Positions 1 through 5,101 of a DNA stretch of 64,000 nucleotides are shown here, one piece after another. The DNA lies in assembly GCF_014219065.1 (NCBI RefSeq), contig NZ_JACLGO010000002.1, positions 62,001-126,000 of the forward strand. The letters are read 5' to 3'. Numbering within the stretch: the first letter of the stretch is position 1; each line of letters opens with the position of its first letter. Both the position numbers and the translations under genes were made by a program. The notes under the pieces were generated by a model. That model saw nothing but the letters and a program-made list of their open reading frames with translations, searched no databases and had not been told where the DNA came from. The stretch comes from Halopseudomonas xiamenensis (GTDB taxonomy: Bacteria; Pseudomonadota; Gammaproteobacteria; Pseudomonadales; Pseudomonadaceae).

Positions 1-330
1 CTGATCTGGCGTGCTCGACCGGATGGGCTGAATAGCTGGTGCAGTGGTTTGTATGCGTCGCCAGCTAACGAACAGGTTGGACTTTATCTGCTACAACCAC
101 AACGATGTGGTGCCGTAACCGAGCCCGAGACATGGGAAGTACGCCCATTGCTTATGGACAACAATGATGCGGCGGATGAGCGATCGCGGTTGCCGGTAAC
201 CATCTCGATCAAAAGTGAGGAGTGTACGGTTTTTGGTATCGCTGGTGAGGGGGCGTTGTATGCGAGCCTGAGTACAACAGATCGCACTGGTAACGAGGTT
301 ATCAGTACTACTTGCCTGATCAACTTTTAA
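1..330 (+). CDS. C-terminal end of an unidentified protein, possibly pilus-related (partial)
   Basis: The reading frame is open from the first base to the stop at 328-330, so this is the 3' end of a gene that starts outside the window. About 109 residues are visible, with several cysteines and a beta-rich, non-membrane character. I do not recognise the family. The gene lies 20 bp upstream of a PilX-like pseudopilin in the same direction, so a minor pilin or PilW/PilV-like role is possible, but this is inferred from context only. A TTG inside the frame (49) could be mistaken for a start, but there is no reason to think translation begins there. Base composition is AT-richer than most of the window. 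Confidence 0.55.
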   Translation: MIWRARPDGLNSWCSGLYASPANEQVGLYLLQPQRCGAVTEPETWEVRPLLMDNNDAADERSRLPVTISIKSEECTVFGIAGEGALYASLSTTDRTGNEVISTTCLINF

Positions 331-350
331 TCAGGAATGAGATTATCGTC

Positions 351-2507
351 GTGAGAAAAATACACTCCAGCTACCAACGACAACAGGGTATAGCTGCCAT
401 CCTTATATTGGTGATGCTCGGGTTGGCATTGACAGCCAGCATGCTGGGTAGTGCCCATTACCTGCGCGCCAGCCAGCAGCAACACATGGTACTACACGCC
501 CAAACCGCTGCAGAGGCTCGAGTTTGGACTGCAGCAGAGGCGCTGCGCCTTTATCTAGAGGCGGTAGCTCAGGCAGGTGAATGGGAAAGCTTTGCCAACA
601 GTCTTGCCATACCAGAGCAAGTCAGCATGGATTTGGATGGCTTCGTTAAGGCTGACATCATCGCATTGAACAATACGCCGAACCCCCAGCTTACGGCACG
701 CTTGGCAGCTAAGGCGGCAGAAAATAGTCCTGCCGAGTCCGCAGCAGTACTGGAAATGGTATATGACATCTTCCTAAACAGTGCGCCTTCTCCAGCGCCG
801 GGTCCCCGTACAGGTCTGCGCCTTAATGCGAACCTGAATTATACTGGAGGCGGCTTGGAGATTGTCCAAGGTGAAAATATGGCTGACTTTGCCGTCAGCG
901 GTAGTCTCACCGTTTCCAGTGGTTCAAAAGCAGTCACGTCAGGCTGTGCCAAAGGTGATATGCGTTATTCGGGAGGAGGTGTTGAGGATGGTGCAAGGCT
1001 GGTTTCCGAAGGCTTAATCTCATTGCAAAATATGACAGCACCTAACAACCTTATGTTGTGGGCAAAGAACATCAGCGCTCAACAGCACAATGGTACTTAT
1101 AGCTCTATTCTTGCAGGCGCTTTTTCAGCAAATGTGCAAGCAGCCGGCAGTGTTATTGGTACAGTGGTTACAGGAGGCCAATTACGGAGCGATGATAAAA
1201 TTATTCCGTCGAAAACAGGAGTCGCACAGATAACGCTGAACGACGGCACTAAGTATTATCTTCAACTAGATGCTGTTTCTGTAAATGATGATGCCATCAT
1301 TACCAAAAATGACGCTGCCACTCGGATAACTGGAAGTAGCGAGCTTCCTGAATCTTTTTCCTTTATATATAAGGGCGTAGAGGGCGGATTAATAACTTTA
1401 ATTGATGCTACGGTTAAGGAGATGTGGGGCAATAATATAAGCCTGCCTGACTGGCACTATCGAATCGATGAGCTCAAGGCGCACGGAAATATAGAGTCAA
1501 ATACGGCTAGTATCGGGTATGTGCTGGCTGGGGGTAATTGGGTAGTAAAAAGCTCGGATCAGCCCACCCTCGACAACCCCAGTAAGCTAGGTGGTCTTTA
1601 TACGGGCGGTAGCCCTCCAGTTCAGTTGGCAACAAAGACACCCGATGCCTCCCCAGGGTTGCCGGGAAACCCTATTTGCGAGGTCGGGCCCGATCAGATT
1701 GTTGTAGAGCGATATAAGGATGAAGCCAATTATGTTTTTTATTTTGAAAACAACAAGCCTATGCTTAAGGTTCAAAATCTAAAAATCTCTAGTACTGATG
1801 CTCCCATAAATGAAACGTACGATTTAAGTAGCGATGATATTCGTTATCTACATGGCTATTCATTTTTTCAGTGTGGGTGGTGGGAAAGTCATTGCTTTCG
1901 TAATGGTACTGCCTCTCCTAGCAAAGGCTGGAGCTTAACCGGCGTTCACAGTTTACCGCCAGGTATTCTCTGGTTTGATGGAGATGTTGCCTTTGATGGC
2001 ATGACGCAAAATACACAGGCATTTTATAATAGTATCCTCACTACAGGCAATTTAACTCTGAAGTCTGGAGGGGGACACCAAACGCTCCGGGCTCCTAATT
2101 TTTCGGACCCGTCGCTAAGCTGTGGAGGTGCTTTCTATCCCGCGAATCTGTGCGATAGATCAGTTTCTCCGCCAGAATTTATAGTAGATAGTGAGGGTCG
2201 AAAGGGACTGCCGCTGGCGAACTCTGCCATTCTTATAGCAGGGGATCTTACGGCCAGCGGCTGGACAATTTATGGCAATGTCAGCCTGGGCCAAGGGCTG
2301 AAGACAGAAGGTGCGAAGGTGACTATTAACGGCGGGTTGTCGGTAGGTGGAAATAGCTTCAGTACTATAAATGTAGGAGCGGGAGGGCTTAAAGTAGACC
2401 TCTCAAATGTCACTCAGGATCAAATTCATTTCCCTGATGACTCTGATAATGATAGCGGTACCCCTGATAGCGCCTCGGCAGAGTTTAAGTGGGGACGTTA
2501 TTTATGA
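351..2507 (+). CDS. Large PilX-like pseudopilin with glycine-rich C-terminal region
   Basis: A 718-residue protein. I chose the GTG at 351, preceded by a purine-rich AGGAATGAG, over an upstream TTG that would overlap the preceding gene. Residues 1-13 form a short charged leader ending in QQG; residues 14-35 are a hydrophobic helix, followed by an Ala/Glu-rich helix (about 45-70). This is the layout of PilX/GspK-type pseudopilins, which often lack Glu at +5, as here. Ordinary PilX proteins are under 200 residues; this one carries about 600 extra residues rich in Gly/Ser/Thr/Asn. The last 120 contain short repeated turns such as GDLTASGWTIYGNVSLG, suggesting a beta-solenoid or bactofilin-like fold. 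Paired cysteines (CGWWESHC, SCGG...LCD) suggest disulfides. It is probably a pilus-tip or minor-pilin adhesin, but its role is unproven. Low GC suggests transfer. Confidence 0.6.
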   Translation: MRKIHSSYQRQQGIAAILILVMLGLALTASMLGSAHYLRASQQQHMVLHAQTAAEARVWTAAEALRLYLEAVAQAGEWESFANSLAIPEQVSMDLDGFVKADIIALNNTPNPQLTARLAAKAAENSPAESAAVLEMVYDIFLNSAPSPAPGPRTGLRLNANLNYTGGGLEIVQGENMADFAVSGSLTVSSGSKAVTSGCAKGDMRYSGGGVEDGARLVSEGLISLQNMTAPNNLMLWAKNISAQQHNGTYSSILAGAFSANVQAAGSVIGTVVTGGQLRSDDKIIPSKTGVAQITLNDGTKYYLQLDAVSVNDDAIITKNDAATRITGSSELPESFSFIYKGVEGGLITLIDATVKEMWGNNISLPDWHYRIDELKAHGNIESNTASIGYVLAGGNWVVKSSDQPTLDNPSKLGGLYTGGSPPVQLATKTPDASPGLPGNPICEVGPDQIVVERYKDEANYVFYFENNKPMLKVQNLKISSTDAPINETYDLSSDDIRYLHGYSFFQCGWWESHCFRNGTASPSKGWSLTGVHSLPPGILWFDGDVAFDGMTQNTQAFYNSILTTGNLTLKSGGGHQTLRAPNFSDPSLSCGGAFYPANLCDRSVSPPEFIVDSEGRKGLPLANSAILIAGDLTASGWTIYGNVSLGQGLKTEGAKVTINGGLSVGGNSFSTINVGAGGLKVDLSNVTQDQIHFPDDSDNDSGTPDSASAEFKWGRYL

Positions 2508-2529
2508 GTATTCCTTTTTATTTTCTTTC

Positions 2530-2997
2530 TTAAAGTTTTGCAGCCTGTGTTAGAGCCAGAAGCTGTTGCCCCGCAATGGGATGACCGAAGGCAGCAGCTT
2601 TGGTTAGCCACATCAAGCCGGTGTTCTCGTCCTTTTGCACTCCGGTGCCTTTTATATATAGCTTGGCCAGATTATGCATGGCGTCGGCGTGCTCTTGGTC
2701 CACTGCTAGCTGCAGCCAATGCACAGCAATATCAGGCCTGTTCGCTTCCAGAAATAGCTGAGCCAGATCATTCTGCGCGTCGGCATCGCCCGCATCGGCC
2801 TCGGTGAAGATTTCGTAATCCTCAGGGTCTACCGCAACGCATAACAATGGGATGAGATCTGCAAAGGCGAGCATGGCCCTGCCCCGTGCATCGTTGACTT
2901 GGCGCCGGATCCGCCCTTCGTTCAGCCGCCGCCAGAACGTTCTTTTACTGATATCGGTAACAATAATCGCCGCATCCAAGCTGATTGCCTTTCTCAC
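2530..2997 (-). CDS. Sel1-repeat protein with HTH-like N-terminus
   Basis: A 155-residue cytoplasmic protein with no signal peptide or membrane segment. Residues about 68-150 contain Sel1/TPR-type helical repeats (for example HADAMHNLAKLYIKGTGVQ and the following LMWLTKAAAFGHP), a protein-interaction fold. The N-terminal 55 residues, with ISKRTFWRRLNEGRIRR, look like a small helix-turn-helix or MerR-like recognition segment, so this could be a DNA-binding regulator fused to Sel1 repeats; that part is inference. It is convergent with the PilX-like gene (22-bp T-rich gap) and divergent from pilA, sharing the palindromic region at 3034-3103. A sigma-54-like -24/-12 element on this strand at 3103-3088 would start transcription about 80 bp before its ATG. 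Confidence 0.7.
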   Translation of the reverse strand: MRKAISLDAAIIVTDISKRTFWRRLNEGRIRRQVNDARGRAMLAFADLIPLLCVAVDPEDYEIFTEADAGDADAQNDLAQLFLEANRPDIAVHWLQLAVDQEHADAMHNLAKLYIKGTGVQKDENTGLMWLTKAAAFGHPIAGQQLLALTQAAKL

Positions 2998-3049
2998 GTT
3001 TCCATCCTTTCACTAGTCAGGGAGTTCCAACACTGTGCCAAAATCAGAT

Positions 3050-3065
3050 TGGCACACCTTCTGCT
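3050..3065 (+). promoter_or_regulatory. Sigma-54-like -24/-12 element (distal, toward pilA)
   Basis: TGGCACACCTTCTGCT matches TGGCAC-N5-TTGCW at all but one position with exact GG/GC spacing. It lies about 205 bp upstream of the pilA ATG and overlaps the left palindrome arm. It could be a second pilA promoter or an RpoN-binding decoy. Its activity is not shown by sequence alone. Confidence 0.4.
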
Positions 3066-3087
3066 GTGCCAATTGGCCAGATGGCAC

Positions 3088-3103
3088 AGCAGAAGGTGTG
3101 CCA
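3088..3103 (-). promoter_or_regulatory. Sigma-54-like -24/-12 element toward the Sel1 gene
   Basis: The right palindrome arm read on the minus strand gives the same TGGCACACCTTCTGCT, with GG and GC correctly spaced. The predicted start is near 3076, giving a leader of about 80 nt for the Sel1-repeat gene. If active, the Sel1 gene would belong to the same RpoN regulon as pilA. Confidence 0.4.
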
Positions 3104-3205
3104 TTTGGCTCGAGTGGATGAAAAATAACATGTCAAATGGCAGAATTTTTGCCAACACGCTCTGATTATATGCTTTTTCCGATGGGTAGCCATGGATTGG
3201 ACTGG

Positions 3206-3221
3206 TGGCATGAATCCTGCA
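3206..3221 (+). promoter_or_regulatory. Sigma-54 promoter of pilA
   Basis: TGGCATGAATCCTGCA has GG at 3207-3208 and GC at 3219-3220, the exact RpoN -24/-12 spacing. The expected start lies near 3233, about 38 nt before the pilA ATG. Pseudomonas pilA is known to be transcribed by RpoN with the response regulator PilR, which fits. Confidence 0.75.
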
Positions 3222-3270
3222 TTGTATATTTCAGCCAAACGGCTATCTCACATACAAACGGAGTTGAGGA

Positions 3271-3648
3271 ATGAAAGCTCAAATGCAGAAAGGTTTTACT
3301 CTTATCGAACTGATGATCGTAGTGGCGATCATCGGTATTCTCGCTGCCATCGCGCTGCCGGCTTATCAGGACTATGTAAATAAGTCTGGTGAAAATGCCT
3401 GCCTGAGCGAGGCTAGCTCTTACACCAAGACACTCATGGCTGCACTTCATACAGACATGGCACGTCCCGATGCACAATTTAACAGTTGTAAGGCGCCTGA
3501 AGGTCTTGATAGCGCTAGCTTAACCACTACCAACCTGGCGTTTACTCCGGAAAAAGGAAAGGCAGGTTCGAGCGTCGTCTGTGATCTTTCGAAAGGTGGA
3601 ACCTGCGAAGTCACAGGGGGCACAGGTTCAGATACTACTTCGGGTTAA
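3271..3648 (+). CDS. pilA: Type IV major pilin PilA
   Basis: A 125-residue prepilin. The leader MKAQMQKG is cut by prepilin peptidase before Phe9, giving the classic mature start [20 protein letters not shown] with Glu at +5, the signature of type IVa pilins; the first 50 mature residues form the polymerisation helix. The 117-residue mature form is short for a Pseudomonas pilin (about 145). There are four cysteines; the last pair ([11 protein letters not shown]) would make the C-terminal disulfide loop. The tail after it is Gly/Ser/Thr-rich and ends TTSG, suitable for O-glycosylation by the ligase encoded immediately downstream. pilB, pilC and pilD are not adjacent in this window. AGTTGAGGA precedes the ATG. 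Confidence 0.93.
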
Positions 3649-3676
3649 TTGATTTTTAGCTGCTCACTCCCTCGTG

Positions 3677-5101
3677 ATGGACATTTTTCAAAAAAACGGT
3701 GAGTGGCTTTACTCGCAGGGCGCTATATTACAAAGTATATGCGCCCCGTTTTTTGTATTGTTTTTTCTCTCAGCTATATATCTAGGTCATGTGGATCTTG
3801 ACTGGCATGACCAGCAACGCGTATCCCAGATCCTGTTACTGCTCGCGATAGTTTTTTTTTCGATTTTCTTTCCTCAGCAGAACCTTCCTAAGCCCGTTTC
3901 ATACGCTTTGTTAGGAATCTTTGCTTCTGGTCTTATATCTTGCTTTTTCGCTGAGCTGCCTGGCTGGGCACTGAAGGAGTGGGCTCGCTATGTGGGGCTG
4001 GCTTTACTGGCAATAATACTGGGGTATTGCGCTCGCAAACCTGTTGTCCGCAGATTCATGCTCTGGGGCATGGCGTCAGTTGGTTTTATCCATGCATTCC
4101 AGTTTCTGGTGGCTTATGCGTCAGCTTTCCTTTCAGGCATGTACATGCTGGATGCTGGCATGCTGTTCCGCGGCTTTTCCAACCCACGTTTTTTCGGTCA
4201 GTTTCAGGTCATGCTGCTACCGGTTCTGGCGTTACTGATTCGGGAGTTCCGGCAACAGGGACGTCGCGGATTGACGGCTATCCTGTTGACTGTTCTGGCG
4301 GTGCAGTGGTGCATTGCCCTGACCCTGGGTGGGCGCGGGTTGTGGTTGGCGCTGGCGGTGAGTCATGCCGCACTCTTCTGTGTCAGCCGCTCGTTCTGGC
4401 GGTTGTTGGTAATACAGCTGATGGCCGGATTGCTGGGAGCCATACTGCTTGTGGTCATGTTTCATCTCATACCGGATTGGCTTGAGATTACGCCCAAAAT
4501 GCGCGACACCTGGCGTTTCACCCTGTCAGGCAGAGGGCCGTTATGGCAATGGGCCTGGGAGATGGCATTGGCCAATCCCTGGTTTGGCGTGGGCCCTATG
4601 CACTATGCAGCTACTCTTAACCCGATTGCCACCCACCCGCATCAGGTGATTCTGCAATGGGCCGCGGAGTGGGGGTTTGTTGCCACAGCACTTGCCATGC
4701 TGCTGGCGGGCTGGGGAGTAATACATGGTGTTATGTATCTGCGCAGGAACATGGCCAGCCATCATGACGCTGCGTTGTGGCTAGCGATTGTCGGCGCCCT
4801 GGTGCTGGCGCAGGTCGATGGGGTGTTCGTTATGCCTTATACGGAGACCTGGCTGGCTATCCTAATTGGCCTGGTCCTGGCTCGATGGTCGACTGCGGCC
4901 AAGTCGCAGCCATTACAACGATATGCAAGTTTGCTACTGGCACTGCCCGTGATGGTCGTTTTCAGCTTGGTATTGCTTGAAGATGTTCCACGTCTTGCTG
5001 AAAACAAACAGGTTTACAGCGAAAAGCACGGAGGGTCTTTTAACCCCCGATTCTGGCAGCAAGGATGGATACCGTTGATGAGTGAGCCGGCTACTCACTA
5101 A
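3677..5101 (+). CDS. O-oligosaccharyltransferase of the Wzy/PglL/TfpO type
   Basis: A polytopic inner-membrane protein of about 474 residues with 10-12 predicted hydrophobic segments. The Wzy_C/WaaL-type ligase region lies around residues 190-340, with [20 protein letters not shown] and a periplasmic-loop motif [15 protein letters not shown] that supplies the family's conserved histidine. Such enzymes move lipid-linked glycan to pilin or lipid A in the periplasm. Its position 28 bp after pilA is that of pilO/tfpO in group I P. aeruginosa strains, where it glycosylates the pilin C-terminal serine; here the pilin also ends in Ser/Thr. Orthology is inferred from position and fold. GTG 3674 is an equally possible start. 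The 3' end overlaps convergent engB by 11 bp. Confidence 0.75.

Follow-up and report, generated by a model that had tools for sequence, protein, structure and literature searches.

In Pseudomonas aeruginosa, the pilin gene pilA is activated by PilR together with sigma-54 (PMC6058289). Pilin modules, designated PIL, have also been described on the Antarctic Pseudomonas plasmids pA6H3, pA62H1, and pA46H2, which are reported to be near-identical outside the PIL region; attachment or biofilm in E. coli was raised by two of these three modules (PMC6896180). Here, we describe a pilin locus in a 64-kb stretch of DNA, hereafter the window, that belongs to contig 22 of a 4.28-Mb genome (G000). At this locus, pilA is accompanied by an array of short inverted half-sites (3034–3103) and by a neighboring gene, HTH-Sel1. 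We consider it likely, with a probability of roughly 0.7, that the array serves as operator for the HTH-Sel1 protein encoded next to it, which would act as a local and sometimes phase-variable regulator of accessory pilins; we infer both the binding and the direction of control.

Organization of the Locus

The array lies between a leftward gene that starts with GTG (2530–2997) and a rightward pilin gene (3271–3648). It consists of five half-sites of the form TGTGCCA or TGGCACA that start at 3034 (plus strand), 3050 (minus), 3065 (plus), 3082 (minus), and 3097 (plus), which corresponds to steps of 16, 15, 17, and 15 bp. A preliminary description of this DNA had reported an array of alternating 7-mers, and the array is real: four of the five half-sites form two dyads within a near-perfect palindrome. 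Both dyads have the form TGGCACA-N8-TGTGCCA and are putative operator elements on the basis of their sequence pattern and conservation, neither being assigned to a strand. Dyad 1 occupies positions 3050–3071, and dyad 2, which begins 32 bp (approximately three helical turns) further on, occupies positions 3082–3103. The two are separated by 10 bp (N10) and are exact reverse complements of one another, such that the 22-bp arms are complementary at 22/22 nt, and at an arm length of 27 nt the value is 25/27. The outer half-site TGTGCCA (3034–3040, plus strand) is a fifth site that falls outside the conserved four-site core and has no exact counterpart in the arrays of two other genomes of the genus, G003 and G007. 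The window contains two close TGTGCCA...TGGCACA pairs, compared with 0.04 on average in 100 shuffled sequences, and the 7-mer taken singly shows no enrichment across the 64 kb (11 observed, 15.8 expected). Thus, positions 3034–3103 represent a local cluster.

The array starts 36 bp upstream of the GTG of the HTH-Sel1 gene and lies approximately 100–170 bp upstream of the −24 element of a putative pilA sigma-54 (−24/−12) promoter (TGGCATGAATCCTGCA; 3206–3221, plus strand), which is called from a consensus match at a conserved place. With a threshold of at least 9 of 11 on our own scoring scheme, 26 of 28 pilin genes linked to HTH-Sel1 and 27 of 28 control pilin genes, both sets being defined below, have a −24/−12 match at the equivalent position, which upholds the earlier proposal that pilA has a separate sigma-54 promoter at 3206. 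The gene for sigma-54 itself is encoded in the genome. The product of pilA (125 aa; gene on the plus strand), the presumed target, was recognized as a type IV pilin by N_methyl (4.1e-10) and by prepilin models. Downstream on the same strand, positions 3674–5101 encode a Wzy_C family protein (PF04932, 1.9e-15) that probably functions as a pilin O-oligosaccharyltransferase.

These genes form part of a stretch of pilus genes of approximately 7 kb that is located between polA and engB and comprises a prepilin gene, a weakly prepilin-like gene, a large gene, HTH-Sel1, pilA, and the Wzy_C gene. The stretch covers positions 1–5100 of the window together with flanking sequence in locus L042. In 24 of 30 loci from the genus, out of 37 matches in all, the polA and engB matches end 230–533 bp apart. 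The six loci without this short gap are the window, L208, L211, L212, L213, and L216, and at least one of them is cut by the end of a contig.

The HTH-Sel1 Protein

The gene that had been described simply as a Sel1 gene (2530–2997, minus strand, GTG start) encodes a 155-aa protein that is predicted to be a MerR/excisionase-type winged helix-turn-helix fused to Sel1 repeats, and this protein is our candidate regulator of the array. The predicted winged helix-turn-helix comprises residues 1–51 (2845–2997, minus strand) and is based on domain model and structure searches, and a Sel1 repeat was placed by Pfam at residues 104–136 (2590–2688, minus strand), the helices of the structural model extending from about residue 58 to 154. 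Pfam reports only Sel1/TPR repeats in the window protein (Sel1, 44 bits against a cut-off of 30.7). Sel1 was matched in 15/15 members of the family (E up to 1), and HTH_17 was matched weakly in 1/15 (E = 0.055), with no Pfam HTH at threshold.

When the whole protein was modeled on the basis of 15 relatives, the mean pLDDT was 95.9, and an N-terminal strand-helix-helix-strand-helix unit preceded the repeats; the best structural matches of this model are Sel1 proteins. When modeled alone, the N-terminal domain (pLDDT 87.9) has a layout of strand, helix-turn-helix, wing, and helix. All of the top 14 Foldseek rows for this domain are MerR-like DNA-binding proteins (probability 0.97–1.00, E 0.05–0.17, best 0.054), and the names among them are GlnR, MtaN, BldC, a Bacillus MerR protein, CvkR, NmlR, and RacA. 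The best Z score was obtained with BldC (6.8), and that with phage Xis was 6.7. These structural scores are modest, yet they are uniform in direction and point to a MerR/excisionase-type DNA-binding domain. No AAA+ domain is recognizable in the protein, NCBIfam returned no specific family but only weak matches below the cut-off, and a search for defense systems with PADLOC gave no match for three window proteins.

An orphan paralog encoded elsewhere in the same genome (G000:C13:34163–34612; L034) is 70% identical to the window protein and has neither a pilin gene nor an array nearby. A counterpart of this paralog, with an altered start of the helix-turn-helix, is present in G036 (G036:C25; L037).

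Association with Type IV Pilin Genes

A pilin gene lies beside the HTH-Sel1 gene in 28 of 32 distinct loci, a count drawn from mutually related cases, among them such close relatives as the plasmid loci L146–L148 and the pairs L200/L201 and L202/L204. The set includes the window, four copies from the same genus, two genomes found at the level of the class and one at the level of the family, four plasmids (of six records; those from Vibrio and Psychrobacter were left out), and five distinct IMG/VR contigs. It further includes 11 of the 59 loci from a scan of genome contigs (L045–L055), namely, those in which the match starts at query residues 1–5; the other 48, most of which match the Sel1 part only, were left out, as were the matches confined to the Sel1 part in our other searches. 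Duplicates were counted once (L046 is the same G003 DNA as L038, L199 equals L039, and L205 equals L204). A pilin motif was found nearby in 11/11 of the scan loci, which come from a Pseudomonadaceae metagenome-assembled genome (MAG), G003, Variovorax, Pseudomonas lini, P. gregormendelii, Comamonadaceae, and a β-proteobacterial MAG. The four loci without a pilin gene are L034 (contig 13 of G000), L037 (G036), L150 (G752), and L194 (G806), and in L150 and L194 a contig ends close by.

Several individual loci have features of their own. In L041, the array is separated from the HTH-Sel1 gene by an apparent transposase gene (3603–4601; IS5-like, named by eye). The pilin gene beside one Variovorax HTH-Sel1 gene (L048:3692–3880) looks truncated after approximately 50 residues. 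In the search tables, a further pilin gene of G007 (G007:C1:3481739–3482039) is adjoined by fragments of an HTH-Sel1 gene.

The orientation of the regulator gene varies among the loci: it may be divergent from the pilin gene, in tandem upstream of it (plasmids L146–L148, Pseudomonas lini, Variovorax L053/L054), or in tandem downstream of it (Variovorax L047/L048). In every one of these orientations, the array is located upstream of the pilin promoter. Because its position is constant whichever way the regulator gene points, the array appears to be tied to the control of the pilin and not merely to a shared divergent promoter region. In the tandem loci, the array is not flanked by divergent genes, which speaks against the reading of the palindrome arms in the preliminary description as a symmetric pair of sigma-54 promoters.

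Conservation of the Array

We searched 37 genomes of the genus for the four-site pattern TGGCACA-N8-TGTGCCA-N10-TGGCACA-N8-TGTGCCA, allowing up to three mismatches and using the reversed pattern as a control. The pattern occurs at one place each in three genomes (G000, G003, and G007), each time with no mismatch and each time flanked by an HTH-Sel1 gene and a pilin gene, and the reversed control has no occurrence in the 37 genomes. All four 7-mers are thus exact in G003 and G007. The spacers match across the palindrome at 8/8 positions in the window, 8/8 in G003 (L038), 3/8 in G007 (L039), and 1/8 in both L147 and L148, and the 27-nt arms of G003 are complementary at 23/27 positions.

The exact dyad is present in 10 of 398 Pseudomonadaceae genomes, and the reversed control pattern is present in 4. 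In five of the ten genomes (G000, G003, G007, G793, and G806), the dyad adjoins an HTH-Sel1 gene, and in four of these five it also adjoins a pilin gene; in G806, the contig ends there. The other five genomes have neither a pilin nor an HTH-Sel1 gene within 1.5 kb of the dyad, and their number is similar to that obtained with the reversed control. Of the inward steps between half-sites, 21 of 35 equal N8.

We then compared the 28 linked pilin genes with 28 controls, that is, same-genus pilin genes without HTH-Sel1 in the locus (approximately 1.5 kb on either side). The control set consists of 30 listed loci minus the three that have HTH-Sel1, plus the pilin gene on contig C8 of this genome (L035), for which the absence of HTH-Sel1 from C8 was taken from a separate search and not from the family-model scan. 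Half-sites were defined as strict (TGGCAC/GTGCCA) or relaxed (TGKCAC/GTGMCA) and were counted over the 220 bp that precede the sigma-54 match of the pilin gene. The mean number of strict half-sites is 2.64 in the linked genes and 0 in the controls, with at least one being present in 25/28 and 0/28, respectively. At least three relaxed half-sites were found in 17/28 linked genes versus 0/28 controls, and at least two in 25/28 versus 4/28. When the span was widened to 330 bp, one strict half-site was found in 3/28 controls. Among the linked loci, L036 has a single half-site, L193 has one near the promoter and a dyad further up, and L152 has no site of the TGTGCCA type but instead contains dyads of GGCGACA/TGTCGCC. 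A different element, TGTCAC/GTGACA, stands 80–136 bp upstream of the −24 element in 17 of the 28 control pilin promoters (among L157–L183), and it is possibly the PilR site.

Predicted Recognition Helices and Putative Operator Words

The predicted recognition helix has the form [KRQ]R[ST]xWRR in 24/24 linked proteins with TGTGCCA-type operators, a match that was spotted after the fact and in which the relatedness of the loci was left in. Four operators have deviating dyads, TGTGACA in L040, L041, and L149 and GGCGACA in L152, and the helices encoded at these loci are KRTLWRH, KRTLWRW, ERTLWRR, and VRTLQRW. Such a correspondence between helix and operator is what a cognate protein–DNA pair would show. 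The operator of L040 also contains one stray strict site of the TGTGCCA type, and 6 of the 24 TGTGCCA-type operators (L045, L054, L055, L146, L202, and L204) also contain a TGTCAC/GTGACA site despite an ordinary helix. Furthermore, the TGTCAC/GTGACA sites in 17 of the 28 controls raise the possibility that a protein other than HTH-Sel1 uses the TGTGACA-type arrays.

Repeat Tracts in HTH-Sel1 Genes

Poly-G tracts are typical of phase-variable contingency loci. Tracts of 8–13 G lie inside 4 of 31 HTH-Sel1 genes (14.7 kb), compared with three tracts in the 262 kb around them, a count that was noticed after the fact and that comes from single assemblies, in which tract lengths may reflect sequencing error. 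The four genes are those of L041 (position 4833), L055 (4123), L193, and L194, and one of the three outside tracts is found where the HTH-Sel1 gene of L150 begins. Additionally, the HTH-Sel1 gene of L040 contains a 7-bp tandem repeat at approximately 4658–4692. In L040, L041, L193, and L194, parts of the HTH-Sel1 gene are in different frames. Judged from these sequences, the tracts in the family look like phase variation. The HTH-Sel1 gene of the window contains neither a poly-G nor a 7-bp repeat tract.

Chromosomal, Plasmid, and Phage Settings

The module is found on chromosomes, on small plasmids, and next to phage tail or lysis genes. Its plasmid carriers include the three Antarctic Pseudomonas plasmids named above. 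In a PHROGs analysis that covered loci other than L201, L203, and L204, a phage tail protein of family phrog_6079 is encoded near the module in L199, L200, and L202, an endolysin in L199 and L200, and a spanin in L199; at L038, genes for an endolysin and a DNA methyltransferase accompany the module. L199 is a stretch of the closed G007 chromosome (L039), and the module is located there between the tail and endolysin genes. We consider that a pilin gene and an HTH-Sel1 gene beside phage genes, as in L199/L039, L200, L202, and L038, likely represent a prophage cargo module. No phage gene was seen beside the module in the window. Between positions 2400 and 5100 of the window and plasmid sequences, similarity is limited to approximately 90 bases that encode the pilin N-terminus (15 records), and in a collection of phage genomes only the Sel1 part was matched (four records).

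Discussion

Other readings of the array have to be weighed against an operator for HTH-Sel1. The preliminary description favored a symmetric pair of sigma-54 promoters, in which the arms are real, inward-facing promoters for divergent transcription of the Sel1 gene and pilA. In this genome, both outer arms (3050–3065 and 3103–3088), read inward, are TGGCACACCTTCTGCT and score 11/11 on the sigma-54 scheme; they match TGGCAC-N5-YTGC[AT] exactly, with GG at −24, GC at −12, and 10 bp between, and the array of G003, in which the spacers match at 8/8 positions, also has two such arms. The sigma-54 match of another pilA gene of this genome, which is on C8 and divergent from a pilB-like gene, is identical to an arm of the window palindrome over 15 nt (G000:C8:78305–78319; L035, L137). 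However, inward dyads with TGG arms are present in 19 of the 28 linked loci, and of their 57 arms, 11 have GC at −12 (still more than the 1 in 16 that chance would give for a dinucleotide) and 5 have YTGC, of which 4 come from this genome and G003, whereas the half-sites and their spacing persist. In G007 (L039), GC at −12 is found in 0/4 arms although all four 7-mers are exact, and in G003 (L038) it is found in 2/4. Moreover, arrays are also present where the regulator gene is not divergent, and a separate sigma-54 match precedes pilA at the position typical of pilin genes. We regard such a promoter pair as quite unlikely and reject it as a conserved function of the arms, given that the −12 element is kept in few related arms, although the arms may have sigma-54 activity in this one genome.

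It is also unlikely that PilR, or some other enhancer-binding protein, uses the array as its upstream activating sequence for this class of pilin while HTH-Sel1 acts elsewhere. Enhancer-binding proteins usually act in the upstream zone in which the array lies. The TGTCAC/GTGACA sites of 17 of the 28 control promoters, 80–136 bp upstream of the −24 element, are consistent with this reading, as is the activation of pilA by PilR with sigma-54 in P. aeruginosa (PMC6058289). Yet the dyad is unlike the PilR hallmarks quoted in the latter source, TGT-N11-AGA and GTCT. In addition, strict half-sites are found in 0/28 same-genus controls over 220 bp and as a single site in 3/28 over 330 bp, and in the reverse search all four genomes with the dyad beside a pilin gene also have HTH-Sel1 there. 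That the palindrome acts as a structure, be it a cruciform, an RNA hairpin, or a bidirectional terminator, would fit the complementarity of the 27-nt arms in the window (25/27) and in G003 (23/27), but the spacers are complementary at only 3/8 positions in L039 and 1/8 in L147 and L148, which indicates that the long palindrome is not generally conserved and that only the half-sites are. A long hairpin or terminator is therefore disfavored, even though the spacers pair in L038, and a structural role seems very improbable to us; there is also no Rfam match in the window. We assign just as little weight to a role of the sites in pilus-linked DNA uptake or recombination. They do adjoin pilin genes, some of them on plasmids or beside phage genes, but the 11 occurrences of TGTGCCA in the 64-kb window, against 15.8 expected, show no enrichment, on which ground an uptake sequence is rejected, and they cluster upstream of the promoter of the pilin gene with a spacing that would suit the binding of dimers.

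The preliminary description had also offered, as an alternative, an unknown dimeric regulator at phased sites, and for this proposal the neighboring HTH-Sel1 gene supplies a candidate protein. If the array is indeed the operator of HTH-Sel1, two dimers of the protein would bind the two dyads side by side, and the distance of 32 bp between the dyads would place them on the same face of the helix. The array spans the region just upstream of the start of the regulator gene as well as the enhancer zone of pilA. Given this position near the GTG of the regulator and upstream of the −24 element of pilA, HTH-Sel1 would control both itself and pilA. Because HTH-Sel1 has no recognizable AAA+ domain, it could not open a sigma-54 promoter alone and must help or hinder an activator. 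A pilin sigma-54 match at the usual place leads us to expect activation of the PilR type, and HTH-Sel1 may thus act on or against the enhancer-binding activator of pilA, presumably PilR. We lean slightly toward a local silencer or anti-activator rather than a co-activator. In those lineages whose regulator gene contains slippage-prone tracts, the pilin could be switched on and off.

Array, regulator, and pilin together constitute a module that may be mobile. We tentatively suggest, as a less secure proposal than the operator itself, that temperate phages and small plasmids carry a full pilin switch, consisting of an alternative pilin with its own HTH-Sel1 regulator and operator and sometimes phase-variable, and that the copy in the window is a domesticated one beside likely minor-pilin and glycosyltransferase-like genes. 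If this is true, such a switch would exchange the pilin of the host pilus and thereby alter phage receptors, attachment, and DNA uptake. A literature search by title and the start of the abstract, which covered few subscription papers and no bioRxiv preprints, revealed neither a pilin regulator of the HTH-Sel1 kind nor type IV pilins encoded by phages.

In environmental Pseudomonadota, additional pilin genes can readily be mistaken for simple duplicates. Our analysis suggests that a class of these extra pilins are parts of a module with a private regulator and a recognizable operator, which makes their regulation testable through a single protein–DNA pair. The module is a possible route by which a prophage or plasmid could alter a surface filament that many phages use as a receptor, and the operator words provide a simple tag for locating more such modules.

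The locus can be set beside four kinds of known system. With the PilS-PilR/sigma-54 control of P. aeruginosa pilA (PMC6058289), it has in common a sigma-54 match at the usual place, but it differs by the additional array and the dedicated neighboring gene, neither of which was seen at the 28 same-genus control pilin loci. With phase-variable contingency loci, some HTH-Sel1 genes share poly-G or 7-bp tracts in the coding region, whereas the window gene is free of tracts, and it is from the tracts that we infer switching. The predicted N-terminal domain shares its strand-helix-turn-helix-wing-helix layout with MerR-like domains such as those of GlnR, MtaN, BldC, and the Xis of mycobacteriophage Pukovnik. 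Several MerR-like domains have been solved bound to DNA. HTH-Sel1 differs from them in a sequence that falls below the Pfam HTH threshold, in its fusion to Sel1 repeats, and in its proposed operator of phased inverted dyads upstream of a sigma-54 promoter. Finally, the PIL modules of pA6H3, pA62H1, and pA46H2, which PMC6896180 treats as pilA, apparently with no mention of a regulator or operator and with no occurrence of the term sel1 in its main text, contain the same gene pair and array as the locus described here.
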